The notes under the pieces are model-generated. The model was not told the origin of the DNA and searched no databases. It saw only the letters and a list, made by a program, of their open reading frames with translations. A stretch of DNA of 64,000 nt from Cellulomonas palmilytica (GTDB lineage: Bacteria > Actinomycetota > Actinomycetes > Actinomycetales > Cellulomonadaceae): contig NZ_CP062221.1 in NCBI RefSeq assembly GCF_021590045.1, forward strand, positions 3,100,001-3,164,000. The letters run 5' to 3'. Made by a program: the position numbers and the translations under genes. Positions 1,772 through 60,306 of this stretch are shown piece after piece (position 1 is the first letter of the stretch; each line of letters starts with the position of its first letter).

Positions 1772-3313
1772 TCACGCCGACACCCCACCCCGACGGCTCT
1801 CCCCGGTCCCGGCCGGTCCCGCCGGCGCGTCGCGTCTCGGCCCGAGCAGGAGCCGCGCGAGCGTCGCACCGACCACGGCTAGCAGCACCACGCCGGCGGG
1901 TCCCGGCAGCCACGCGAGGCGCGCACCGGGCAGGTGCGCGGCGTGGCGGGCGACCGCGCCGATCCACCAGCACGCCGCGCCGGCCACCGCCGCGACCGCC
2001 TCGGCCGCGCCCGGCCACCACGGAGCCAGCACGGCGGCGAGCAGGCCCAGCAGCGTGGCCGGCGCGACCGCGGGTGCCGCCACGACGTTGGCCAGGACGC
2101 CCCACGGCGTGAGCACGCCGCTCACGACGAGCACGAGCGGGCCGCACACGAGCTGCGCCGCGACCGGCACCGCGATCCCGGACGCCGGACCGTGCCCGAG
2201 CCGAGCCGCCCAGCGCCGCGTGAGCGCGGTCCCGAGCAGGACGATCCCGGCGGTCGCCGCGACCGACAGCGCGAAGCCGAGCTCGCCCGCGAGCCACGGG
2301 TCCGCCACGAGCAGCACGACGACGGCCGCCCCGAGCGCGGCGGGCGAGCGCGCCGGCCGTCCTGCGGCGAGACCGAGCACGCCGACCGCGCCCATCGCGG
2401 CGGCCCGCACGACACTCGGCTCAGGGTGCACCAGCACGAGCATCCCGGCCGCGACGGCGACGGTCGCACCGGCCTGCACGCGCGGCGGCGCGCCGACCGC
2501 CGCGGTACCGGCGAGCACGAGCGACGCGACGAGCGCGAAGTGCGCACCCGAGACCGCCACGAGGTGCGTCAGCCCGGACGCGCGCATGGCGTCGGCCAGG
2601 TCGTCGGGCACGCGCGAGGTGTCCCCGACCGTCACACCGGGCAGCAGGGCGGCGGCGTCGCCCGGGATCCCGTCCGCGAGCGCTCGCACGTGCGCGCGGG
2701 CGCGGCCGGCGGCGGCGTCCCACGCGCGCGGGGGCTCGAGCGTCACCGGGTCGGCGCCCGCGACGAGCACCGCGACCTCGCGGGCGCCGGGATCGGCCGC
2801 GCGCAGCCTGCCCGTGACCTGCACCCGCGCACCGTAGGCGGGCCCGCCGCCCCCGAGCGCGCCGCACAGCACGACGACCCGCCCGACGGCGGCCGACGTC
2901 CGACGACCCGCCTCCACGCGCGTCACGTCGAGCACCCACCGCGTGCGCGGCGGCGCACCGGGCCACGTCGCGCGCACGGGCACCGGGTCGGCGCCCACGC
3001 GGCCGACGAGCGTGGCGACCGCCGCCCGCGCCGAGAGCTCGGGCAGCAGACCCCGTTCCCGGGCCGCGACCTGCGTGGCCCCCGCGGCACCGACGGCCGC
3101 GGCTGCGACCAGCGCGAGCACGACCGACGCCTGCCAGGAGGGCTGCACGAACCCGTCCCACCGGCGCCGGACCGGCCCGAGCGCACAACCGGACGCGAGC
3201 AGCACGGCGCCGACCGCCACGACGAGCGCCCGGCCGGGCGGCGCCCGCACGACGAGCAGCGCCGCGACCCAGGACGCGAGCGCGGCCGGCACGAGGCGCA
3301 GGTCGAGCGTCAC
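1772..3313 (-). CDS. comEC: ComEC/Rec2-type competence membrane protein without a metallo-beta-lactamase domain
   Basis: A 513-residue polytopic membrane protein. An N-terminal hydrophobic pair and a soluble beta-rich domain (about 60-220) are followed by a competence-type membrane domain with the conserved GLTHLVAVSGAHFAL segment and many hydrophobic helices. Full-length ComEC forms the DNA-uptake channel and often ends in a metallo-beta-lactamase nuclease domain. Here the protein stops after the last membrane segments with an Arg/Gly/Pro-rich tail, so that domain is absent. The GTG start overlaps the comEA stop codon by 4 bp (GTGA), which implies translational coupling and fixes the start. 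Minus-strand neighbours are comEA upstream and holA downstream. Confidence 0.88.
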   Translation of the reverse strand: MTLDLRLVPAALASWVAALLVVRAPPGRALVVAVGAVLLASGCALGPVRRRWDGFVQPSWQASVVLALVAAAAVGAAGATQVAARERGLLPELSARAAVATLVGRVGADPVPVRATWPGAPPRTRWVLDVTRVEAGRRTSAAVGRVVVLCGALGGGGPAYGARVQVTGRLRAADPGAREVAVLVAGADPVTLEPPRAWDAAAGRARAHVRALADGIPGDAAALLPGVTVGDTSRVPDDLADAMRASGLTHLVAVSGAHFALVASLVLAGTAAVGAPPRVQAGATVAVAAGMLVLVHPEPSVVRAAAMGAVGVLGLAAGRPARSPAALGAAVVVLLVADPWLAGELGFALSVAATAGIVLLGTALTRRWAARLGHGPASGIAVPVAAQLVCGPLVLVVSGVLTPWGVLANVVAAPAVAPATLLGLLAAVLAPWWPGAAEAVAAVAGAACWWIGAVARHAAHLPGARLAWLPGPAGVVLLAVVGATLARLLLGPRRDAPAGPAGTGESRRGGVSA

Positions 3314-5351: not shown

Positions 5352-8272
<2,921 letters not shown>

Positions 8273-44069: not shown

Positions 44070-44132
44070 ACCCGGGCGCGAGCCGCTCTCGTCGCGGCCG
44101 CCCGCCCCGCCTGCCGGGACAGACGGCGGGGC
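44070..44132 (-). ncRNA. Leader RNA element resembling the P2/pseudoknot part of the SAM riboswitch at 45651
   Basis: The hairpin at 44104-44132 has the same length (29 nt) as the P2 hairpin of the SAM riboswitch and matches it at 23 positions. Four of the six differences form two compensated stem pairs (U-A to C-G). Twenty-eight nt after it, a CCGGG sequence (44071-44075) can pair with the CCCGG loop, mirroring the pseudoknot, and one pseudoknot pair is also compensated. The conserved GCAACC and GGUGC core is not present and there is no convincing P1. It sits in the leader of the nitroreductase operon. Function unproven. Confidence 0.4.
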
Positions 44133-45650: not shown

Positions 45651-45736
45651 GGCCGGTCCCGAGTTCCGCCGTCTGGCTCGGCAGGCGGAACAGCAACCCC
45701 CAGACACCGGTGGGGTGCTCCCGAGCACGACCTGGC
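45651..45736 (+). ncRNA. SAM riboswitch, SAM-IV / SAM-I-IV class
   Basis: The 5' strand GCCGGTC pairs with GACC-TGGC at the end (P1). P2 is GTTCCGCC/GGCGGAAC (45663-45670, 45684-45691). The conserved GCAACC follows, then P3 pairs ACCCC with GGGGT across a short loop, and GGGGTGCTC follows. The P2 loop GCTCGG (45676-45681) pairs perfectly with CCGAGC (45721-45726), the pseudoknot typical of the actinobacterial SAM-IV class. A GC-rich hairpin (about 45735-45757) after P1 and the AGGAAGG ribosome binding site may form the expression platform. It controls the aminotransferase-LLM-LLM operon. Confidence 0.75.
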
Positions 45737-45791
45737 GCACCCGCACCAGCGGGCGCGCAACCGATGTCCCCCAGGAAGGCGCCACGACGCC

Positions 45792-50641: not shown

Positions 50642-51954
50642 TTCAGCCCCAGGTGCGAGCGCAGCGTCGTGCCCTCGTACTCGGTGCGGAACACGCCCAG
50701 GCGCTGCAGGTGCGGCACGACGGCGCGGCCGAACTCGTCGAACGTCCCCGGGAAGTGCGTCGGCGTGACGAGGAAGCCGTCCGCGGCACCCGAGGTGAAG
50801 ATGTCCGCGAGCTGCTCGGCGACCTCCCGGCCCGTGCCGACGACCTGCGGCGTGAGCTCGCTCGTCGAGAACGTCACCGCGGCCTCCGCGAGCGTCACCG
50901 CGCGCTTGCGCGCGCCCAGCAGCTCGTCGAGCTGCACGATCGTGCGCGACTCGAGGTGCTCGGGCGTCGCCCGCTCCTCGAGGACCTGCGCGTACGGCGT
51001 TCCCGGGTCCAGGTCGCCCAGGTCGAGCCGGGAGAACATGCCGAAGAACTCGATCCCCGCCTCGGGCGCGATGTACGAGGCGAGCGCGTCGCGGCGGGCG
51101 CGGGCGATCTCCGTCGTCTCGCCGATGATCGGCTGGACCGCGGCGAACAGCCGCAGCGCGTCGGGGTCGCGGCCCTGCCGCGCCGCCCGGGCGCGCAGGT
51201 CGTCCTTCTTGGCGCGCAGGTCGGCGGGCGTGCGCTCGATCGCGAAGATCACGTCGCCCCAGCGCGCGCCGTGGTCGCGCCCGCGCGGCGAGTCGCCCGC
51301 CTGGATGATCACCGGGTGCCGCTGCGGCGACGGCGGCAGGTTGAGCGGCCCGCGCACCTCGACGTACTTCCCCTTGTACTCGGGCGCGGTGATCCTCGTC
51401 GTGTCCGCGTACACGCCGGTCTCGGGGTCCGCGACGAGCGCGTCCGGCGCCCACGAGCGCCACAGCGCGAGCACGGCCTCGACGAACTCGTCGCCGCGGT
51501 CGTACAGCTCGGTACGCCCGAGCTGCTCCGCGCGCGGGAAGTTCGCGTAGTTGGCAGGGCCGCTGGACTGGATGACGTTCCACGCGACGCGCCCGCCCGA
51601 CAGGTGGTCCAGGCTGAGCAGCGTGCGCGCGAGGTTGTACGGCTCGTTGAAGCTCGTCGAGAGCGTCACGCCGACGCCGAGGTGGTCGGTCACCGCGACG
51701 ACCTGCGCGGCGAGCTGCGCCGGGTCGTGCTTGAGGCCGTTGCTCAGGCCGTGCCGCGCGAAGCCCTCGCGGTAGCTCACGGTCTCCGGGATGAACGCCA
51801 GGTCGAACCGCGCGCGCTCCAGGGTGCGGGCGATGTCCTGGTAGAGCGTGCGGTCGTTGAAGTCGCGCTCGGAGTACGGGTGGCGCCAGGCGCCGGCGTA
51901 GTGCCCGCTCGGGAACAGCAGGTACGCGCCGAGGAACAGCTGTCGCTCGGTCAT
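50638..51954 (-). CDS. LLM-class flavin-dependent monooxygenase
   Basis: A 438-residue monooxygenase of the NtaA/SnaA/DszA type. LGAYLLFPSGHYAGAWRHPYSERD, LLSLDHLSGGRVAWNVIQSS, the YDRGDEFVEAVLALWRSW helix, YVEVRGPLNLPPSPQRHPVIIQAGDSPRGRDHGARWGDVIFAIE and the closing VFRTEYEGTTLRSHLGL are diagnostic. Second of two adjacent monooxygenases in the cysteine-leader operon, separated by 30 bp, and coupled by a 4-bp overlap to the hydrolase. AGGGGG precedes the ATG. Confidence 0.93.
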   Translation of the reverse strand: MTERQLFLGAYLLFPSGHYAGAWRHPYSERDFNDRTLYQDIARTLERARFDLAFIPETVSYREGFARHGLSNGLKHDPAQLAAQVVAVTDHLGVGVTLSTSFNEPYNLARTLLSLDHLSGGRVAWNVIQSSGPANYANFPRAEQLGRTELYDRGDEFVEAVLALWRSWAPDALVADPETGVYADTTRITAPEYKGKYVEVRGPLNLPPSPQRHPVIIQAGDSPRGRDHGARWGDVIFAIERTPADLRAKKDDLRARAARQGRDPDALRLFAAVQPIIGETTEIARARRDALASYIAPEAGIEFFGMFSRLDLGDLDPGTPYAQVLEERATPEHLESRTIVQLDELLGARKRAVTLAEAAVTFSTSELTPQVVGTGREVAEQLADIFTSGAADGFLVTPTHFPGTFDEFGRAVVPHLQRLGVFRTEYEGTTLRSHLGLK

Positions 51955-51984: not shown

Positions 51985-53325
51985 TCAGGCGGAGACGAGC
52001 TCGGGGCGGTGCTGTCCGCGGACCGCTGCCGGTCGCGGCAGGCCGAGGTTGTCGCGCAGGGTCGTGCCCTCGTACTCGTCGCGGAAGATCCCGCGACGGC
52101 GCAGCTCGGGCACGAGCCGTCGGGTCACGTCGTGCAGTCCCTGCGGGATCGACGACGGCAGCAGGACGAACCCGTCCGCCGCGTCCCCGTGGAACCACGA
52201 CTCGAGCTCGTCGGCCACCTCGCCCACCGTCCCGACGACCTGCCGGTGGCCGCTCGAGCCGACCTCGAGCTCGATGAGGCGGCGCAGCGTCCAGCCCTCG
52301 TGCACCGCGAGGTCGCGGAACACCTGCGCGCGGGACTGGCGGATGTTGACCGTCGCCGGGTCGGGCAGCAGGTGCTCGGGCGGCACCTCGTCGAGCCCGA
52401 CGCCCGACAGGTCCGCGCCGCCGAGCTGGCGCTGCAGCCGCAGGAGCCCCGCCGCCAGGTCGACGCGCCCGTCGAGCGCGCGCTTGGTCGCGACCGCCTC
52501 GTCGTGCGTGTCGCCGACGACGACGCTCGTGCCGGGCAGGACGAGCACGTGCTCCGGCTCCCGGCCGAGCGCCGCGACGCGCGACTTCACGTCCCGGTAG
52601 AACTCGCGGGCGCCGCGCAGCGACTGCTGCGCCGTGAAGATGACGTCGGCGTACCGGGTGCCGAGCTCCTTGCCGTCCTGCGACGACCCCGCCTGCACCA
52701 GCACGGGACGGCCCTGCGGCGTGCGCGGCAGGTTCAGCGGCCCGGCGACCGTGAAGTGCTCCCCCACGTGGTCGATCGGGTGCACGCGGTCCTGCTCCGC
52801 CCACACGCGCCGCTCGCGGTCGACGACGATCGCGTCGTCGTCCCAGCTGTCCCACAGCGCGGTGGCGACCTCGACGAACTCCGCGGCCCGCCCGTAGCGC
52901 CACGTGTGGTCCGGCAGCGGGCCGCCGCCGAAGTTCTCCTGGCCCGCCGACGAGGTGACGACGTTCCACGCCGCACGGCCGTCGGAGATGAGGTCGAGCG
53001 ACGCGACCTGCCGGGCGAGGTTGTACGGGTGCGAGTACGTGGTCGACGCGGTCGCGATGAACCCGATGCGCTCGGTGAGCGCCGCGAGCGCCGAGAACAG
53101 CGTGAGCGGCTCGAGGTGCGCGTACGGGCGGTCGCCGATCTGCTTGCGGTCGAGCGTGACGCCGTCGGCGACGAACAGCGCGTGGAGCTTCGCCCGCTCC
53201 GCCTCGAGCGCGATGTCGCGTGCGAGGCCGAGCGAGAACGCCTCCTCGGCGCGCGAGTCCGGCCGGGTCCACGCGCCGCCGACGCCTCCGAGGATGAGGC
53301 TCAGGACGAGCTGGCCGCGGCTCAT
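51985..53325 (-). CDS. LLM-class flavin-dependent monooxygenase
   Basis: A 446-residue monooxygenase. It has LSLILGGVGGAWTRPDSRAEEAFSLG, ATASTTYSHPYNLARQVASLDLISDGRAAWNVVTSSAGQEN, PLNLPRTPQGRPVLVQAGSSQDGKELGTRYADVIFTAQ, and GFVLLPSSIPQGLHDVTRRLVPELRRRGIFRDEYEGTTLRDNLGL at the C-terminus. Its ATG overlaps the stop codon of the ABC binding-protein gene by 4 bp, tying substrate capture directly to oxidation. The oxidised compound is probably the imported organosulfur ligand (inference). Confidence 0.93.
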   Translation of the reverse strand: MSRGQLVLSLILGGVGGAWTRPDSRAEEAFSLGLARDIALEAERAKLHALFVADGVTLDRKQIGDRPYAHLEPLTLFSALAALTERIGFIATASTTYSHPYNLARQVASLDLISDGRAAWNVVTSSAGQENFGGGPLPDHTWRYGRAAEFVEVATALWDSWDDDAIVVDRERRVWAEQDRVHPIDHVGEHFTVAGPLNLPRTPQGRPVLVQAGSSQDGKELGTRYADVIFTAQQSLRGAREFYRDVKSRVAALGREPEHVLVLPGTSVVVGDTHDEAVATKRALDGRVDLAAGLLRLQRQLGGADLSGVGLDEVPPEHLLPDPATVNIRQSRAQVFRDLAVHEGWTLRRLIELEVGSSGHRQVVGTVGEVADELESWFHGDAADGFVLLPSSIPQGLHDVTRRLVPELRRRGIFRDEYEGTTLRDNLGLPRPAAVRGQHRPELVSA

Positions 53326-54899
53326 GCGCGCCCCACCTCCTGCGCGTAGAGGTAGCGCGACGGCCGCTGCTCCCACGTCACCGCGCGGGAGATCACCGCG
53401 GTGAACGGCGACGGGTACAGGAAGATCGTGTGCGCCTGCTCGCGGTACAGCGCGGTCGCCTGCCGCACGAGGTCGCCCTGCTCGTCGACGTCGGTCGACG
53501 CCTGGATCTGCTTGACGAGCGCGTCGAACTCCGGCGAGACCACGTCGCTCTGGATGTGGTCGGTCGTGAACGGGTCGAACAGCTGGTAGCCGCCCCGGTA
53601 CTGCCCGCCCCACATGATGTAGACGAGGTCCGCGCCGGCCTGCGCGTCGCCGTACTGCCGCTCGATCCACGCGGGGAACGGCGTCTGCGTGATCGTGAGC
53701 TTCACGCCGACCTGCTCCCACTGCGACGCGATCGCCTGCGACGCGAGGTCCGCCGACACGTACGTGCCCGACGGGACGTCGACCTCGAGCTCGAAGCCGT
53801 CGGCGTAGCCCGCCTCGGCGAGCAGCGCGCGCGCCTTGTCGAGGTCGAACGGGTACGCCTCGAGGTCCGGGTTCTCCTCCTGGTAGGGCTCGAACAGCAC
53901 CGACCCGGGCAGCGGCTCGACGGCCCCCTTGAAGAGTCCCTCGATGATCGTCTCCTTGTCGGTGGCGTAGTTGAGCGCCTGCCGCACGCGCTCGTCCGCG
54001 AGCGGCGTGCCCTTCTTCTCCTCGTTGACGGCGAGGACGAGCGGCTGCGGTCCGACGCCCAGCACCGTCTCGTAGACCGGCGAGTCGGCGAACTGGTCGA
54101 GGCTCAGCGGCTCGACGTTCAGCACGATGTCCGCCTCGTTCGCGGCGATCGCGGCCACGCGCTGGGCCTCGGACGCGAGGACCGTGTAGCGCACCTTCTC
54201 GAACGCCGGCTTCTCGCCCGCGTAGTGCGGGTTGAGCGAGAGCGTCACGCCGTTCTCGAGGTCGAGGTCGTCGACCTGGTACGGCCCGGTGCCGAGCGAC
54301 TCGGTGTCGAGGTTGTGCGACTCGGCGAACGCCTTGTCGACGATGTACACGTTCCACAGCCGGCCGGGCAGGTCGAGCGCGGGCGCCAGCAGGTCGAACC
54401 GGACCGTGTCCTCGTCGACCGCCGTGACGGACTTCGTGTAGACGCGCAGCGGCGCGCCGAGCGTGCCCTCGTACTCCGGGTCGAGCAGTCGCTCGAAGTT
54501 CCACGCGATCGTCTGCGCGGTCAGCGGGGTGCCGTCGGAGAACACCGCGTCGGTGCGCACGGTGAACTCCCACTGCAGGTCGCTGACCTGCGTCCACTCG
54601 GTCGCGAGCGAGGGCGCGACCTCGTTGTCCGGCGTGATGCGCGTGAGCGCCTCGTACACCGAGCCCGCGACGGCGCCCTGGCTGTCGGGCGAGCCGCCCT
54701 TGTGCGGGTGGAGGTTCGTGAGCTGGCGGCTGAGCACGAGGCGCAGCGTGTCGCCGGCGGCGGGCGCCGCGGTGACGCCCGACGACGAGCCGGGGTCGGC
54801 GCTCGTCGACGACGCGCACGCCCCGAGGACGAGCAGCGCGGCGGTGGCCGCGGCGATGCCGGCGAGCCGTCGACGGGACGAGGACGTGGATCGGGACAC
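53322..54899 (-). CDS. ABC transporter substrate-binding lipoprotein (family 5)
   Basis: A 525-residue solute-binding lipoprotein. The signal peptide has an Arg/Ser-rich start, a hydrophobic core (LAGIAAATAALLVL) and the lipobox LGAC. The mature part contains YEALTRITPDNEVAPSLATEWTQVSDLQWEFTVR, then DGTPLTAQTIAWNFERLLDP, of the family signature, and QALNYATDKETIIEGLFKG. I chose the GTG at 54899, preceded by AGGAG, because it gives a normal lipoprotein signal peptide. The ATG at 54971 overlapping the ATPase stop would add 24 residues. Ligand unknown; an organosulfur compound is inferred from context. Confidence 0.92.
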   Translation of the reverse strand: MSRSTSSSRRRLAGIAAATAALLVLGACASSTSADPGSSSGVTAAPAAGDTLRLVLSRQLTNLHPHKGGSPDSQGAVAGSVYEALTRITPDNEVAPSLATEWTQVSDLQWEFTVRTDAVFSDGTPLTAQTIAWNFERLLDPEYEGTLGAPLRVYTKSVTAVDEDTVRFDLLAPALDLPGRLWNVYIVDKAFAESHNLDTESLGTGPYQVDDLDLENGVTLSLNPHYAGEKPAFEKVRYTVLASEAQRVAAIAANEADIVLNVEPLSLDQFADSPVYETVLGVGPQPLVLAVNEEKKGTPLADERVRQALNYATDKETIIEGLFKGAVEPLPGSVLFEPYQEENPDLEAYPFDLDKARALLAEAGYADGFELEVDVPSGTYVSADLASQAIASQWEQVGVKLTITQTPFPAWIERQYGDAQAGADLVYIMWGGQYRGGYQLFDPFTTDHIQSDVVSPEFDALVKQIQASTDVDEQGDLVRQATALYREQAHTIFLYPSPFTAVISRAVTWEQRPSRYLYAQEVGRA

Positions 54900-54967
54900 G
54901 GAGGGGCTCCTGCGTTCGAGGGTGTCCGCCGGCACGGTCGGCCGGCGGCGGGTGGAGGTCGGCCTGG

Positions 54968-56668
54968 TCATGCGGTGCCCTGGCCGGGGACCGCGGCGAC
55001 CAAGGCGCGGGTGTACGGGTGCTGCGGGTCGTCCAGCACGTCCCGGGTGCGGCCCTGCTCGACGATCCGCCCGGCGCGCAGCACCACGACGTCGTCGCAC
55101 AGGAACCGCCCGACACCCAGGTCATGCGAGATGAACAGGTAGGTCAGGCCGCGCTCGGCGCGCAGCCGCTCGAGCAGGCGCAGGATGCGCGCCTGCACGG
55201 ACAGGTCGAGGGCGGAGACGGGCTCGTCGGCGACGACGAGGCGCGGCCGGGTCGCGAGCGCCCGCGCGATGCCCACGCGCTGGCGCTGCCCGCCCGACAG
55301 CTCGCCGGGCAGCCGCTGCGCGAACGCGCGCGGCAGCTCGACCTCGTCGAGCAGGTCGGCGACCTGCCGCTCGGCCTCGCGGCGGCTCAGGCCGAGCGTG
55401 AGCTCGAGCGGCTCGCGCAGCGTCTGCGCGACCGTGAGACGTGGGTCGAGGGAGCCGTACGGGTCCTGGAACACGTACTGCACGTCGCGGCGCCACGCGC
55501 GCCGCTGCGCGCGGTCGAGCCGCGTCGCGTCGAGGCCGTCGTGCTCGACCGTGCCCGAGTCGGCGCGCTCGAGGCCGACGACGATGCGTGCGAGCGTCGT
55601 CTTGCCCGAGCCGGACTCCCCGACGAGGCCGAGCGCGGCGCCCTGCCGGATCGTGAGGTCGACGCCGTCGAGCGCGACGTGCCGTGTGCGGCCGTGGGCA
55701 CCGCGCAGCGCGAACGCCCGGCGCAGGTCCCGCACGACGAGCTGCGGCGCGACCTCGTCGGCGGCGGGCGACGACGCGCGCGGCGTCACCCGGGCGCGCT
55801 CGAGACGACTGGGCACCGCGGCGAGCAGGCGCTGCGTGTACTCGTGCTGCGGCCGCTCGAGCACGTCGCGCGTCGGGCCGGACTCGACGACGACGCCCTG
55901 CGACATGACGTGCACGTGGTGCGTGCGGTCGGCGATCACGCCGATGTCGTGGCTGACGAGCAGCACGCCGAGCCCGTGCCGCTCGCGCAGGTCGTCCAGC
56001 AGGTCGAGCACCTGCGCCTGCACCGACACGTCGAGCGCGGTCGTCGGCTCGTCGGCGATGAGCAGGCGCGGCGAGCGCGCGAGCGCCATCGCGATGACGA
56101 CGCGCTGGTTGAGCCCGCCGGACAGCTCGTGCGGGAAGGCGTGCGCGGTCTTGGCCACGTCGTCGATGCCGACGTCGCGCAGCAGCTGCGCGACCTGCTC
56201 GCGCGCCGCACGCCGCGGCGTGCCCGCGGGCAGCGCCTCCGCGACCTGGCGCCCGATGCGCAGGCGCGGGTTGAGCGCAGGCGTCGGGTTCTGGAACACG
56301 ACGCCGACGTGCGCGGCGAGGTGGGCCCGCCGGTCCCGCGGCGCGAGCGCGCGCACGTCACGCCCGACGACGTCCACGCCGCCCGACCAGACCTCGACGC
56401 CGGCGGGCAGCAGGCCGGCCACCGCGAGCGCGGTGAGCGTCTTGCCCGAGCCGGACTCCCCGACGAGCCCGACGACCGACCCCGCGGGGACGTCGAGGGA
56501 CACCCCGCGGACGATCGGCACGGGCTCGGAGTCCCGGCCCGCCGCGCCTCGTCGTGCCGCCGGCCGTTCCAGGCCCACGACGAGGTCGCGCACGGCGAGC
56601 GCGGCGGTGCCGGTCGGCCGGGCCTCGAGCGTGGCGAGCGACGGACGGTCGTGCAGGTCGACGCTCAT
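54968..56668 (-). CDS. ABC transporter, fused double ATPase (oligopeptide type)
   Basis: A 566-residue protein with two nucleotide-binding domains. First half: GESGSGKTLTALA, LSGGLNQRVVIAMAL, LLIADEPTTALD, SHDIG. Second half: GESGSGKTTLARI, LSGGQRQRVGIARAL, LVVADEPVSALD, SHDLG. Both halves end with the oligopeptide-type tails HEYTQRLL and HPYTRALV. The first signature reads LSGGLNQR instead of LSGGQxQR, a common variant. The ATG overlaps the permease stop codon by 4 bp. It energises the two permeases of the cysteine-leader operon. Confidence 0.95.
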   Translation of the reverse strand: MSVDLHDRPSLATLEARPTGTAALAVRDLVVGLERPAARRGAAGRDSEPVPIVRGVSLDVPAGSVVGLVGESGSGKTLTALAVAGLLPAGVEVWSGGVDVVGRDVRALAPRDRRAHLAAHVGVVFQNPTPALNPRLRIGRQVAEALPAGTPRRAAREQVAQLLRDVGIDDVAKTAHAFPHELSGGLNQRVVIAMALARSPRLLIADEPTTALDVSVQAQVLDLLDDLRERHGLGVLLVSHDIGVIADRTHHVHVMSQGVVVESGPTRDVLERPQHEYTQRLLAAVPSRLERARVTPRASSPAADEVAPQLVVRDLRRAFALRGAHGRTRHVALDGVDLTIRQGAALGLVGESGSGKTTLARIVVGLERADSGTVEHDGLDATRLDRAQRRAWRRDVQYVFQDPYGSLDPRLTVAQTLREPLELTLGLSRREAERQVADLLDEVELPRAFAQRLPGELSGGQRQRVGIARALATRPRLVVADEPVSALDLSVQARILRLLERLRAERGLTYLFISHDLGVGRFLCDDVVVLRAGRIVEQGRTRDVLDDPQHPYTRALVAAVPGQGTA

Positions 56669-57576
56669 CGGTCGACTCCCTTCGACGAGGCGCCGGTCCG
56701 GCCGGCGCCGAACCGCTCCGCGAGGCCGTCGCCCAGCAGCTGCAGGGCGACGATCGTGACGATGAGGGCGACGCCCGGGACGAGCGAGAGCCAGGGGGCG
56801 GTCGCGAGGCGCGCCTGCCCGGCCGAGACCATCTGGCCCCAGTCGGGCTGCGGCGGCTGCACCCCGAGCCCCAGGAACCCGAGGCTGGACTCGAGCAGCA
56901 GCACGGCCGAGGCGGACAGGGTCACCGCGACGAAGAACAGCGGCAGCACGCTCGGGACCACGTGGCGGCACGCGACCGCACCGCGGCCCGCGCCGGCCAC
57001 GCGCGCGGCCTCGACGTACGGCTGCGCGACGACGGCACGCGCGTGCCCGCGGATCACCCGGAACGTCAGCACCCAGGCGCCCAGCACGAGCACGACGACG
57101 ATCGGCACGAACGAGTTGCCGACGAACGACAGGATGACGATCGCGAGCACGATCGACGGCACCGCGAGCTGCACGTCCGCGAGCCGACCGCCGATCGCGT
57201 CGACCACGCCTCCGAACAGCGCGCCGGCCACGGCGAGGCCGAGGCCCAGCACGGACGCGACGAGGCTCGCGACCGCCGTCACCGCGAGCGCCGTGCGCCC
57301 GCCGTGCACGGTGCGTGCGAGCAGGTCCCGTCCGAGCTCGTCGGTGCCGAACCAGTGCTCGGCCGACGGCGCCTGCAGGATCGCCGTGAAGTCCTGCGCG
57401 TACGGGTCGGCCACCAGCAGCGGCCCGACGACCGTGGCGGCGACGACGAGGGCGAGCAGCGACGCGCCCACCCACGTGCCCACGCTGAGCCGCGCACGGC
57501 GCCGCGGCGCGGCCACCTCGCGGACGGAGGTGGACGTGGCGCCGTCGACGACGACGGCGGCGAGCTCGGCGGTCAT
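56665..57576 (-). CDS. ABC transporter permease (DppC-like)
   Basis: A 303-residue permease. The first helix is VGASLLALVVAATVVGPLLV, then HWFGTDELGRDLLARTVHGGRTAL, the signature of DppC-type permeases, and five more helices with the EAA loop PYVEAARVAGAGRGAVACRHVVPSVLPL. The first 30 residues are cytoplasmic and Arg-rich. Its start overlaps the DppB-like gene by 4 bp. Confidence 0.93.
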   Translation of the reverse strand: MTAELAAVVVDGATSTSVREVAAPRRRARLSVGTWVGASLLALVVAATVVGPLLVADPYAQDFTAILQAPSAEHWFGTDELGRDLLARTVHGGRTALAVTAVASLVASVLGLGLAVAGALFGGVVDAIGGRLADVQLAVPSIVLAIVILSFVGNSFVPIVVVLVLGAWVLTFRVIRGHARAVVAQPYVEAARVAGAGRGAVACRHVVPSVLPLFFVAVTLSASAVLLLESSLGFLGLGVQPPQPDWGQMVSAGQARLATAPWLSLVPGVALIVTIVALQLLGDGLAERFGAGRTGASSKGVDR

Positions 57577-58583
57577 GAGCGCAACCTCGGTTCGGCGATG
57601 GCGGCCAGGACGTCGACGAGCAGGTTGATCAGCACGAAGCCGACCGCGATGACCAGCACGCAGACGATGACCAGCGGGTAGTCGCGGTTCTGGACCGCGT
57701 TGATGGACAGCTGCCCGATGCCGGGCCAGCCGAAGATCGACTCGGTCACCACGGCTCCCCCGAGCAGCACGCCCGCCTGGATGCCGACGACCGAGAGCGT
57801 GGGGCCGAGCGAGTTGCCGAGCACGTGGCGACGCACGAGCACGTGGCGCGACAGACCCTTGGCCCGCGCGGTCCGCACGTGGTCGGCGCCGAGCGTGTCG
57901 AGCACCGCGGTGCGCAGCACGCGGGCGATCGCGGGGACGAACGCGACCGCGAGCGTGAGCGCCGGCAGCACGAGGCCCGCCGGGCCGGTCCCGCCGGTCG
58001 CGGGGAGCCAGCCGAGGTTCACCGCGAACACGAGCGTCACGAGGATGCCGAAGAAGAAGGTCGGGATCGCGTCGAGCCCGACGACGAACGACAGCGGGAC
58101 GCGGCGCCAGAACGCCGAGCGTGCGGTCGCCGAGACGTACCCGATCGTCCCGCCGACCAGGATGCCGAGCGCGAGCCCCGCGAACCCGAGCTGCAGGCTC
58201 GCGGGCAGCCGCTCGAGCGCGATCCCGACCGGGTCCGCGCCGTAGCGCAGCGAGTCCGGGAAGTCACCGCGCACCGCGGCGCCGAGGAAGCTGACGTACT
58301 GCACCGCGACGGGCCGGTCGAAGCCGAGCTGCGCGGTGAGCCGCGCGGCCTCCTCGGGCGGGGCGTCGGGCGCGATGAGCAGCAGCGCGGGGTTGCCGGT
58401 CGAGTACAGCGCGAAGAAGACGAGCGTCGCGGCACCCCACACGGCGACCAGCCCCGTGAGGAGGCGGCCGCCCAGGTAACGCCAGCCGACGGGCGGACGC
58501 AGGCGGCGCGCGACCGCGGCGAGCCGCGGGCCGGTGCCGGACGCCGCGGGTACCGCGGGCGGTCGGGCGGTGAGGACGGACAT
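57573..58583 (-). CDS. ABC transporter permease (DppB-like)
   Basis: A 336-residue permease with an Arg-rich N-terminus, the first helix LLTGLVAVWGAATLVFFALYS, the external LGFDRPVAVQYVSFLGAAVRGDFPDSLRYG segment, and the EAA-like loop VRTARAKGLSRHVLVRRHVLGNSLGPTL. The C-terminal VDVLAAIAEPRLR matches DppB proteins. It is the first large gene after the cysteine-rich leader peptide. The gap between them is 253 bp. Confidence 0.93.
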   Translation of the reverse strand: MSVLTARPPAVPAASGTGPRLAAVARRLRPPVGWRYLGGRLLTGLVAVWGAATLVFFALYSTGNPALLLIAPDAPPEEAARLTAQLGFDRPVAVQYVSFLGAAVRGDFPDSLRYGADPVGIALERLPASLQLGFAGLALGILVGGTIGYVSATARSAFWRRVPLSFVVGLDAIPTFFFGILVTLVFAVNLGWLPATGGTGPAGLVLPALTLAVAFVPAIARVLRTAVLDTLGADHVRTARAKGLSRHVLVRRHVLGNSLGPTLSVVGIQAGVLLGGAVVTESIFGWPGIGQLSINAVQNRDYPLVIVCVLVIAVGFVLINLLVDVLAAIAEPRLRS

Positions 58584-58836
58584 GGGTGCTCCGGAGGTCT
58601 GGGGCGGACCGGGACGGCCGGTCGGGCAGGAGGGGACGCACGACGACCGCGAGGGCGGCCGGCGAGACGCGCAGGGCGCGACGACGACGCGGGCCGGGCG
58701 GCGCCACGAGGCGGCCCGGTCCGGGCGTGCGGGAGGGCGTCGACCACCGTGACGGTCGACGGCGGGCGCGCGGCCCGCGGCGGGGTGCGGCGTGTCGAGG
58801 GCGCGCGTGGGCGCCCGCGCTCAGGCGTCGCTCAGG
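58584..58836 (-). promoter_or_regulatory. Untranslated region between the leader peptide and the ABC operon, candidate attenuator
   Basis: A 253-bp non-coding leader. Two hairpins stand out on the transcribed strand: GGGCGC/GCGCCC (58799-58804, 58811-58816), 20 bp after the leader stop codon, and GTCGACC/GGTCGAC (58739-58760). Ribosome stalling or completion on the upstream Cys codons could shift which structure forms. This is the expected position of a terminator or ribosome-binding-site occluding structure in cysteine attenuation, but no alternative pairing has been computed. Confidence 0.45.
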
Positions 58837-58899
58837 TCAGCGACAGCACGCGACGGCGGGACAGCAGCGCATCGCGGTGAGGTGGTGGTGCTTCGACAT
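58837..58899 (-). CDS. Cysteine-rich leader peptide
   Basis: A 20-residue peptide, MSKHHHLTAM followed by RCCPAVACCR. It contains two Cys-Cys pairs (residues 12-13 and 18-19) and three consecutive His. GGAGG lies 5-6 bp before its ATG. Short Cys-rich peptides ahead of sulfur-assimilation genes are known in actinobacteria as translational sensors of cysteinyl-tRNA supply, and in mycobacteria poly-Cys leaders act as cysteine-responsive attenuators. Here the peptide precedes the whole ABC-monooxygenase operon, so high cysteine should lower expression and starvation should raise it. Confidence 0.8.
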   Translation of the reverse strand: MSKHHHLTAMRCCPAVACCR

Positions 58900-59037
58900 G
58901 GCCGCCTCCGGCGGGAGGTCGTACGGGGTCCGGCGCCGAGACGACGCGGACGCGGTGCGCCCGGGGACACGTGCCCGGTCGCCCGGGTCGCGCCGCACCG
59001 CCAGCCGGGCCTGACGGCGGTGCGTGAAACCGCGAGG

Positions 59038-59083
59038 AACGTACGAGCGCGCCCGGCAAGGGTCAATGGTCCCCCTCGTACGT
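59038..59083 (-). promoter_or_regulatory. Promoter and palindromic operator of the cysteine-leader operon
   Basis: TTGACC (59061-59066) and TACGTT (59038-59043) on the minus strand, spacer 17 bp. Two exact inverted 9-bp half-sites flank the promoter: ACGTACGAG at 59039-59047 overlaps the -10 box, and CTCGTACGT at 59075-59083 lies just upstream of the -35 box. The geometry fits a repressor that blocks or loops across the promoter. Confidence 0.6.
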
Positions 59084-59160
59084 CCCACGATCCGAGACCC
59101 GCCGCCCGCGATCAGGGCCGACGCCGTGCGGTCAGCCGGGGGGTCAGCCGTGCGGACGGG

Positions 59161-60306
59161 TCAGGAGGCGACGCGGCGGCGGGTGAGCACGAGGTCGTCG
59201 CGGTGGACGAGCTCACGGTCGTAGCCCGCGCCGAGCTCGCGGCGCAGGTCGCGCGTCGATCGACCGAGCAGGCTCGGCACCTCGTCGGAGCCGAACGCCA
59301 CGAGACCCCGCGCGACGACGCGCCCGTCCGGGGCGACGAGCTCGACCGGGTCCCCCGCCTCGAAGTCGCCCTCGACGGCGGTGACCCCCGCGGGCAGCAG
59401 CGACGTGCGCCGCTCGACGACGGCCTTGACCGCGCCCTCGTCGAGGACGAGCCGACCGCGGACGCGCGCGGCGTGCGCGAGCCACAGCAGACGGATCGAC
59501 TTGCGCCGACCGGTCGCCGCGAACCACGTGCCGACGTCGTCGCCCGCGAGCGCCTGGGCGGCCTGCGCGGCTGAGGTCAGCACCACGGGGATGCCCGACG
59601 CGGTCGCGATCGCGACCGACTCGAGCTTGGTGACCATGCCGCCCGTGCCGACCGCCGAGCCGCGCCGCGACACGTCGATGCCCTCGAGGTCGCGCGCGCT
59701 GTCGACGCGCGAGATCCGCCGCGCTCCCGGCGAGGACGGTGCGGCCGTGTACAGGGCGTCCACGTCGGTGAGCAGCACGAGTGCGTCGGCGTGCACGAGG
59801 TGGGAGACGAGGGCCGCGAGGCGGTCGTTGTCGCCGAACCGGATCTCGTCGGTCGCGACCGCGTCGTTCTCGTTGATCACGGGGACGACACCGAGGTCGA
59901 GCAGGCGCGTCAGCGCGCGGTGCGCGTTGCGGTAGTGCACGCGCCTGACCGTGTCGTCGGCGGTGAGCAGCACCTGCCCGACGCGCAGGCCGAGGTCCGC
60001 GAACGCCTTCGTGTAGTGCGCGACGAGCAGCCCCTGCCCCACCGACGCGGCCGCCTGCTGCGTCGCGAGGTCCCGCGGGCGCGCCGCGAGGCCGAGCGGC
60101 CCGATCGCCGCGGCGATGGCACCCGACGAGACGAGCACGACCTGGCCGCCCGCGGCGCGACGCTTCGCGAGGACGTCGACCAGCGCCCGGAGCCGCTCGG
60201 GGTCGAGCCTTCCGTCCGGGCTCGTCAGGGACGACGAGCCGACCTTGACGACGACCCGCGAGGCCGTGGCGATCTCGGCGCGGTCGTGCAACGGAGGGGC
60301 GGTCAC
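59161..60306 (-). CDS. proB: Glutamate 5-kinase
   Basis: A 381-residue kinase that phosphorylates glutamate as the first step of proline synthesis. The amino-acid-kinase domain has VVVKVGSSSLTSPDG, VVLVSSGAIAAAIGPLGL, VVPVINENDAVATDEIRFGDNDRLAALVS and GTGGMVTKLESVAIATASG. A C-terminal PUA domain (about 285-375) is present, with KAVVERRTSLLPAGVTAVEGDF. The GTG follows GGGAGA and lies 16 bp after the obg stop codon, so it belongs to the rplU-rpmA-obg-proB unit. Confidence 0.97.
   Translation of the reverse strand: MTAPPLHDRAEIATASRVVVKVGSSSLTSPDGRLDPERLRALVDVLAKRRAAGGQVVLVSSGAIAAAIGPLGLAARPRDLATQQAAASVGQGLLVAHYTKAFADLGLRVGQVLLTADDTVRRVHYRNAHRALTRLLDLGVVPVINENDAVATDEIRFGDNDRLAALVSHLVHADALVLLTDVDALYTAAPSSPGARRISRVDSARDLEGIDVSRRGSAVGTGGMVTKLESVAIATASGIPVVLTSAAQAAQALAGDDVGTWFAATGRRKSIRLLWLAHAARVRGRLVLDEGAVKAVVERRTSLLPAGVTAVEGDFEAGDPVELVAPDGRVVARGLVAFGSDEVPSLLGRSTRDLRRELGAGYDRELVHRDDLVLTRRRVAS

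Follow-up and report, generated by a model that had tools for sequence, protein, structure and literature searches.

A probable cysteine attenuator leader behind a SAM-IV-like pseudoknotted RNA at the head of an organosulfur-type operon in Cellulomonas

Canestrari and colleagues reportedly described mycobacterial polycysteine leader frames in 2020. The cysA2 leader is a mycobacterial polycysteine frame treated in the part of Shell et al. 2015 available to us (PMC4633059), and the SAM-IV riboswitch (RF00634) is laid out, in the accessible portion of PMC6890682, as P1, P2a, a four-nucleotide turn, P2b, PK-1, P3, P5 and PK-2. Here we analyze 64,000 nucleotides of Cellulomonas palmilytica (contig NZ_CP062221.1, positions 3,100,001 to 3,164,000; hereafter the window), in which a short cysteine-rich frame lies behind a pseudoknotted RNA element resembling SAM-IV. 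The evidence points to a cysteine attenuator leader for an organosulfur-type operon, placed behind a SAM-IV-derived pseudoknot, and we regard this reading as probable. No pairing of SAM-IV with an amino-acid leader peptide was found in the literature searched, most subscription papers lying outside it, and the portion of a tandem-riboswitch review available to us (PMC9481103) makes no mention of a leader peptide, attenuation or a uORF.

The leader frame, its operon and its relatives

The frame occupies 58837-58899 on the minus strand, with its ATG at 58899 and its TGA at 58837, and its 20 codons specify the peptide MSKHHHLTAMRCCPAVACCR, in which a run of histidines (His4-His6) precedes two Cys-Cys pairs (TGC TGT ... 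TGC TGT). The gap that holds it measures 577 bp, from the permease start at 58583 to the end, at 59161, of an upstream same-strand frame which we take, from the way it reads, to be a glutamate 5-kinase. A preliminary description of this DNA had listed the 20-codon frame (leaving its strand unsaid), a ribosome binding site of its own, both Cys-Cys pairs, the 577-bp gap before the first permease and a promoter ahead of the frame, and all of these are confirmed here, the ribosome binding site as GGAGG at 58905-58909 and the promoter as TTGACC-17-TACGTT, of a form (TTGACC-17-TANNTT) that recurs at all six of the loci designated class A below, though an automatic sigma-70 scan of 58400-59200 called no promoter. 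The features of the locus are these:

59038-59066, minus strand: promoter TTGACC-17-TACGTT, read from the sequence and recurring at 6/6 loci
58951-59034, minus strand: SAM-IV-like 5'UTR element (class A), found by the promoter plus loop pattern at six loci in 221 family genomes
58995-59023, minus strand: P2 hairpin with an 8-bp stem, four stem pairs of which changed on both sides among the six class A rows
59003-59015, minus strand: P2 loop GTCAGGCCCGGCT, which includes P2b and the pseudoknot's 5' strand; near-constant loop, covarying arms
58967-58993, minus strand: P3-like hairpin (limits by eye), without the GCAACC motif on motif comparison
58960-58964, minus strand: 3' strand (CCGGG) of a PK-1-like pseudoknot, with one informative pair
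58905-58909, minus strand: Shine-Dalgarno (SD) sequence GGAGG of the leader frame, from the sequence
58837-58899, minus strand: cysteine leader frame MSKHHHLTAMRCCPAVACCR, marked by TGC TGT ... TGC TGT, the chance control and TGT bias
58584-58836, minus strand: untranslated stretch between leader and permease, rich in C and poor in G, a candidate expression platform (C/G 1.54)
57573-58583, minus strand: Opp/Nik-type permease 1 (PF00528, NCBIfam)
56665-57576, minus strand: Opp/Nik-type permease 2 (PF00528)
54968-56668, minus strand: fused two-domain ABC ATPase of 566 aa (PF00005, two stretches in a longer frame)
53322-54971, minus strand: solute-binding protein, family 5, start approximate (PF00496)
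51985-53325, minus strand: NtaA/DmoA family FMN-dependent monooxygenase, start approximate (TIGR03860 at 478.5 bits in the longer frame; PF00296)
50653-51930, minus strand: second NtaA/DmoA family monooxygenase, given as match extent (TIGR03860 at 415.9 bits)

Judged by the names of these families, the operon would be an organosulfur-type set for uptake and monooxygenation. Related leaders were found in four other Cellulomonas genomes (G002, G006, G024 and G031) and at a second locus in the window's own genome (G000b), and together with the window these make up the six class A loci. In the first three of these genomes the leader occupies the corresponding position of the orthologous operon, each frame with its own SD (MTTSSRWTTAPTPAPRVCRACRR, MSTHTRTALPLLRARRAHPAHCAPCCR and MTTPITAQVALGRTTPVLVACCRA, respectively; the G002 contig stretch stops within the ATPase); the peptide is MSKHHPLAAPRCCPAAHACCR in G031 and MIQALAPLAHRPARRTPCPPACPSARCR at G000b, the latter ahead of a TIGR03860 monooxygenase, so that in the window's genome both loci have NtaA/DmoA monooxygenase genes downstream of the leader. 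C-terminal Cys codons and an SD before the ATG are present at all six loci, and the Cys-tailed, SD-led frame starts 74-92 nt past the hairpin match in every one. Conservation of the Cys codons in related genomes, which the preliminary description had proposed to look for, is thus observed, a Cys tail occurring in the equivalent position in four relatives and also at G000b. TGT accounts for 11 of the 18 leader Cys codons, compared with 3 of 99 in 37 gene-like frames of the window (Fisher p 1e-8, which is too optimistic because the leaders are related to one another).

The G031 locus differs in what follows the leader, where the permease match covers no more than residues 18-90 of 336 and none reaches E<=1e-60, and the operon therefore appears largely lost and its leader copy may be free of selection. 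This remnant lies at 2181-2399 (-) of contig L157, and a monooxygenase match on the opposite strand (1782-2192) adjoins it, so that an operon deletion seems likely. By eye, the G002 leader is followed, from its stop codon on, by about three near-identical tandem units of 16 bp (L124, ~5620-5675 (+)).

The permease itself is narrowly distributed, occurring at 77-100% identity in 4/81 Cellulomonas genomes including that of the window (E<=1e-60), with copies of 38-42% identity at the same threshold in three further genomes of the 81, and at E<=1e-90 in 4/221 family genomes. Orthologues of 67-72% were present, among the matches listed, in two Pseudonocardia genomes and one Nakamurella genome. The permeases, ATPase and binding protein keep the same order on contigs L013, L014, L015, L016/L125 and L126, and on these the monooxygenase match behind the operon reaches only 34-50%. 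The Nakamurella operon has a Cys leader, MTHEPRGLLTSRRRVVDLLQTASSLCCQHRW (TGT TGC). The Pseudonocardia operons (L013 ~6505-6606 (+) and the matching position of L014) have leader-like frames with the tail LTQRRFIDHGTVxSASCR, one TGT near the end and a start codon placed by eye; Rfam gave no SAM-IV in this region at E<=1.

The upstream RNA and its relation to SAM-IV

Between promoter and frame, 6/6 loci carry an 8-bp hairpin with the loop GTMAGN1-2CYCGGCT and, downstream, a CCGRG capable of pairing with that loop; an outer CGCGGT/ACCGCG pairing (P1) was seen by eye in just two copies, that of the window and that of its nearest relative, G031. If transcription starts where the -10 box implies, the 5'UTR before the Cys frame would be an estimated 110-132 nt. 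In an alignment of the six class A rows (here and below with rows chosen by us and P3 omitted) 100% of cells were paired, a value as high as which occurred in 0/500 shuffles, while slid-partner controls reached at most 53.3%; of the five pairs with changes on both sides, four belong to the stem and one to the pseudoknot, and further pair types were unremarkable (100/500 shuffles as high). When the six were aligned with 13 SAM-IV-like elements, 98.2% of cells in the 19 rows were paired and seven pairs had changed on both sides. The pseudoknot's varying pair was U-A in 11 of these rows, C-G in 6, U-G in 2 and broken in none, and it is the one informative pair of five because the strand had been picked by its motif. 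The preliminary description had read the frame as the leader of an ABC-transporter and monooxygenase operon, and the cysteine leader in that reading is supported, while the conserved pseudoknotted RNA between promoter and frame had been missed.

A hairpin model (R1) built from four class A hairpins and run on 221 family genomes, with stricter filters and 32 candidates scored per genome, matched at E<=0.5 in at least 153 of them, mostly weakly; the window hairpin scored 51 bits, with a model that this copy had helped to build. Among the matches listed, 27 had E<=1e-3, comprising the six class A loci (the four model sources, G031 and, lower down, G000b), 10 Rfam-confirmed SAM-IV elements and a remainder of SAM-IV-like elements, coding-like sequence and three left uninterpreted. 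A scripted screen of 50 loci around R1 matches (30 from the search itself and 20 by region) found a Cys frame behind such a hairpin only at class A loci. The promoter combined with the class A loop pattern matched in 9/221 family genomes, comprising all six class A loci, spread over five Cellulomonas genomes, together with four other matches judged from their letters to be chance; since its design relied on loci already known, class A elements of greater divergence could escape it. Across the order the pattern matched 37/396 genomes and a reversed-pattern control about 26, and on the overall reading we take the matches outside this genome's two loci to be chance. Class A is paired with a Cys leader at 6/6 loci, an arrangement found in only 5/81 Cellulomonas genomes.

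Rfam called no SAM-IV at the class A element of the window, G002, G006 or G024 at E 10, nor at those of G031 and G000b at E 1, and class A elements fall short of the SAM-IV gathering score of 38 bits. The SAM-site signature, consisting of purines (GA/AG) before P2 and the GCAACC of P3, was found in 0/6 class A elements and in 10/10 Rfam-positive Cellulomonas SAM-IV elements. Seven further elements were intermediate, with GA in 6/7, GCAACC in 0/7 and P3 missing from two; five of the seven were Rfam-negative at E<=1 and the other two, L168 and L169, lay outside the Rfam scan. L168 2595-2626 (+) and L169 2512-2543 (+) are the elements in which P3 is absent, and they retain a P1-like GGTC/GACC, P2 and the pseudoknot motif. 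Within the window, a SAM-IV-like P2 without GCAACC, also Rfam-negative, lies at 44101-44132 (-), and the gene behind it is similar to NADPH nitroreductases, with a match of 192.8 bits that does not reach the cut-off of 223. A canonical SAM-IV (68.9 bits) is found at 45655-45769 (+), amid an NtaA/DmoA monooxygenase cluster at ~44-53 kb.

In the orthologous operon of Nakamurella, a canonical SAM-IV (95.3 bits) precedes the Cys frame at a distance of 15 nt. The simplest history would be that SAM-IV and a Cys leader stood together and that SAM-IV then changed in Cellulomonas. Rfam matches to SAM-IV are common in this genus, with at least one in 76/81 genomes (E<=1) and, in the window's genome, seven at E<=1 and five at E<=1e-6. 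A general tandem of SAM-IV with a Cys frame was considered and rejected, since an SD-led Cys frame was near the best-scoring canonical SAM-IV at 3/115 loci, compared with 31/2400 random stretches from the same loci (5/120 loci having been dropped where the core motif was not found; a smaller count gave 3/55, control 11/600), and the Cys frame is therefore not a general companion of SAM-IV. Individual cases do occur: in L252 a canonical SAM-IV is followed within ~40 nt by an SD-led MRCCPLTRSH before an O-acetylhomoserine sulfhydrylase, which looks real, and in L246 by a very short SD-led Cys frame, MCIRRMCCR, again within ~40 nt. Divergent pairs of SAM-IV elements ~150-170 bp apart occur in three Cellulomonas genomes (L158, L163 and L164).

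The strongest alternative, to which we assign not far short of an even chance, is that the element ahead of the frame is no more than a SAM-IV in decay, its P2 and pseudoknot serving as a scaffold or 5'-end stabilizer that binds no ligand. The absence of both GA and GCAACC from every class A element when both are kept in all Rfam-positive Cellulomonas elements would fit such decay, as would the seven intermediates, two of them already without P3. Against this, the P2 loop is near-constant while its arms show compensated changes, which suggests present selection, and promoter spacing and the Cys frame are kept in 6/6. A more speculative possibility, which we consider doubtful, is that class A represents a riboswitch variant in which the ligand site of a SAM-IV scaffold has been rebuilt for some other sulfur metabolite, and which gates translation of the Cys leader; were this true, one 5'UTR would take two sulfur signals in series, the aptamer first and the ribosome second.

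The output step and remaining alternatives

According to the cysteine attenuator reading, the mRNA would begin with a pseudoknotted RNA descended from SAM-IV, with P2 and PK-1 retained and the SAM-site signature lost. When Cys-tRNA is scarce, ribosomes would stall on the TGC-TGT codons close to the frame's end, and the operon would thereby be expressed; with ample cysteine they would finish and leave, and the downstream gap would shut the operon off. We infer the pausing from the anatomy of the frame and from mycobacterial precedent, as given in the accessible parts of PMC4633059, PMC13236596 and PMC9094748.

The gaps behind five leaders span 130-347 nt with C/G of 1.38-1.89, above the 99th percentile of the window at matched lengths (1.43-1.60) in 4/5, the fifth, G031, being just under its own 99th and above the 95th; 18 other upstream gaps in the window have C/G of 0.70-1.43. 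Such a C-rich gap hints, weakly, at Rho, the comparison being with this window only. Each of the five gaps contains several strong GC hairpins, none of them common by eye, and no common terminator or anti-terminator was seen.

It is possible, though unlikely, that shut-off is instead by translational attenuation of the mycobacterial polycysteine type, in which a stalled ribosome frees a masked ribosome-binding site of the permease. The closest characterized system is cited as translation attenuation in the portion of PMC13236596 available to us, and in G002 the stalled state was slightly more open than that with the ribosome at the stop (0.36-0.39 compared with 0.34, a difference of 0.02-0.05). 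In the other 4/5 folded leaders, however, accessibility of the start site was equal in the two states, the mean unpaired probability at the permease start, stalled and at stop, being 0.59/0.59 in the window, 0.48/0.48 in G031, 0.62/0.62 in G006 and 0.42/0.42 in G024 (thermodynamic folding without co-transcriptional kinetics, with ribosomes at each Cys codon or the stop, and with G000b left out). Because no start release was seen in 4/5 foldings, the gaps are C-rich and no common hairpin was seen, premature termination, by Rho or by GC-rich hairpins, would be likelier than masking of the permease start, and with modest confidence we favor it as the route of shut-off, Rho being the likelier agent.

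Other alternatives fare considerably worse. The inverted repeat could be a protein operator on the DNA rather than an RNA, and the loop end does fall 24-30 bp past the -10 box, a possible position for repressor binding, but compensated arms around a near-constant loop are the opposite of a palindromic operator and the distal pair covaries too, making this reading very unlikely. That the window frame is a chance open frame is more improbable still: by eye, little similarity beyond the Cys tail is apparent among the peptides of G002, G006, G024 and G000b, yet of 30 SD-preceded ATG/GTG frames of 12-36 codons on both strands of the 64-kb window only the leader shows four or more Cys among its 12 C-terminal residues, no such frame arose in 25 first-order Markov simulations of the window, and recurrence at 6/6 loci and the TGT bias also speak against chance, in agreement with the preliminary description, which had called the Cys pattern improbable by chance. 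Its suggestion that the His codons could give a second sensing input is not supported, and a dual His/Cys sensor, which the three His codons of the window copy might evoke, is scarcely credible given HHP in G031 and no HH run in G002, G006, G024 or G000b.

Comparison with known leaders and riboswitches

The window leader has the form of a putative cysteine leader, a short frame with clustered Cys codons before predicted sulfur genes, and that it is a further member of this known kind is, on the sequence evidence, well supported. The preliminary description had likened it to known actinobacterial cysteine leaders; the kind is supported by the Cys tails at 6/6 loci and the TGT excess, while no curated family matches, since the window peptide had no match to NF042933, NF042934 or any curated leader family, and neither it nor the five other class A peptides matched NF042933 (Ms5788A; cut-off 45 bits) at E 10. 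The Nakamurella peptide is weakly like NF042933 (E 0.011) and NF042934 (E 0.034), below the cut-offs. Three Cys lie close to the end of a Streptomyces lividans leader called 'metL' (MSTTSDRTPATEATTTPGARCMCRRMCAF); Table 4 in the available part of PMC8079986 assigns it to methionine, but it may belong with the cysteine leaders.

If the attenuator reading is true, cysteine attenuation by leader peptides extends to organosulfur scavenging in Cellulomonas, and a leader peptide for an amino acid, arranged in series behind a riboswitch-like RNA, would make a design with two inputs. Elements passing from canonical SAM-IV through those with P3 altered or missing to class A, tied to Cys leaders, would form a natural series in which loss or change of a riboswitch ligand site can be traced.

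Class A frames resemble mycobacterial polycysteine frames in being short, in their C-terminal Cys codons and in their position at the head of an actinobacterial sulfur operon. They differ in that the mycobacterial frames are leaderless, whereas class A frames are SD-led, an estimated 110-132 nt inside the mRNA, and preceded by a structured RNA, and in that folding lends no support to start-site masking in class A. With SAM-IV, as drawn in the accessible part of PMC6890682, class A shares P2a, a short turn, P2b and PK-1 in SAM-IV order, and its element sits at the same place as the one that Rfam calls SAM-IV in the orthologous Nakamurella operon; it differs in lacking the GA before P2 and GCAACC, in having A-U for U-A at one P2b pair, and in that P5/PK-2 were not seen by eye and P1 was seen in two close relatives only. 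Divergent members of the SAM-I/SAM-IV superfamily have been described, said to be without the P2 internal loop and to have many features of both families; class A is likewise a divergent member, but it keeps the P2 turn and is without the SAM-site signature. What is new here, relative to all of these systems, is a Cys leader together with a pseudoknot of apparent SAM-IV descent.
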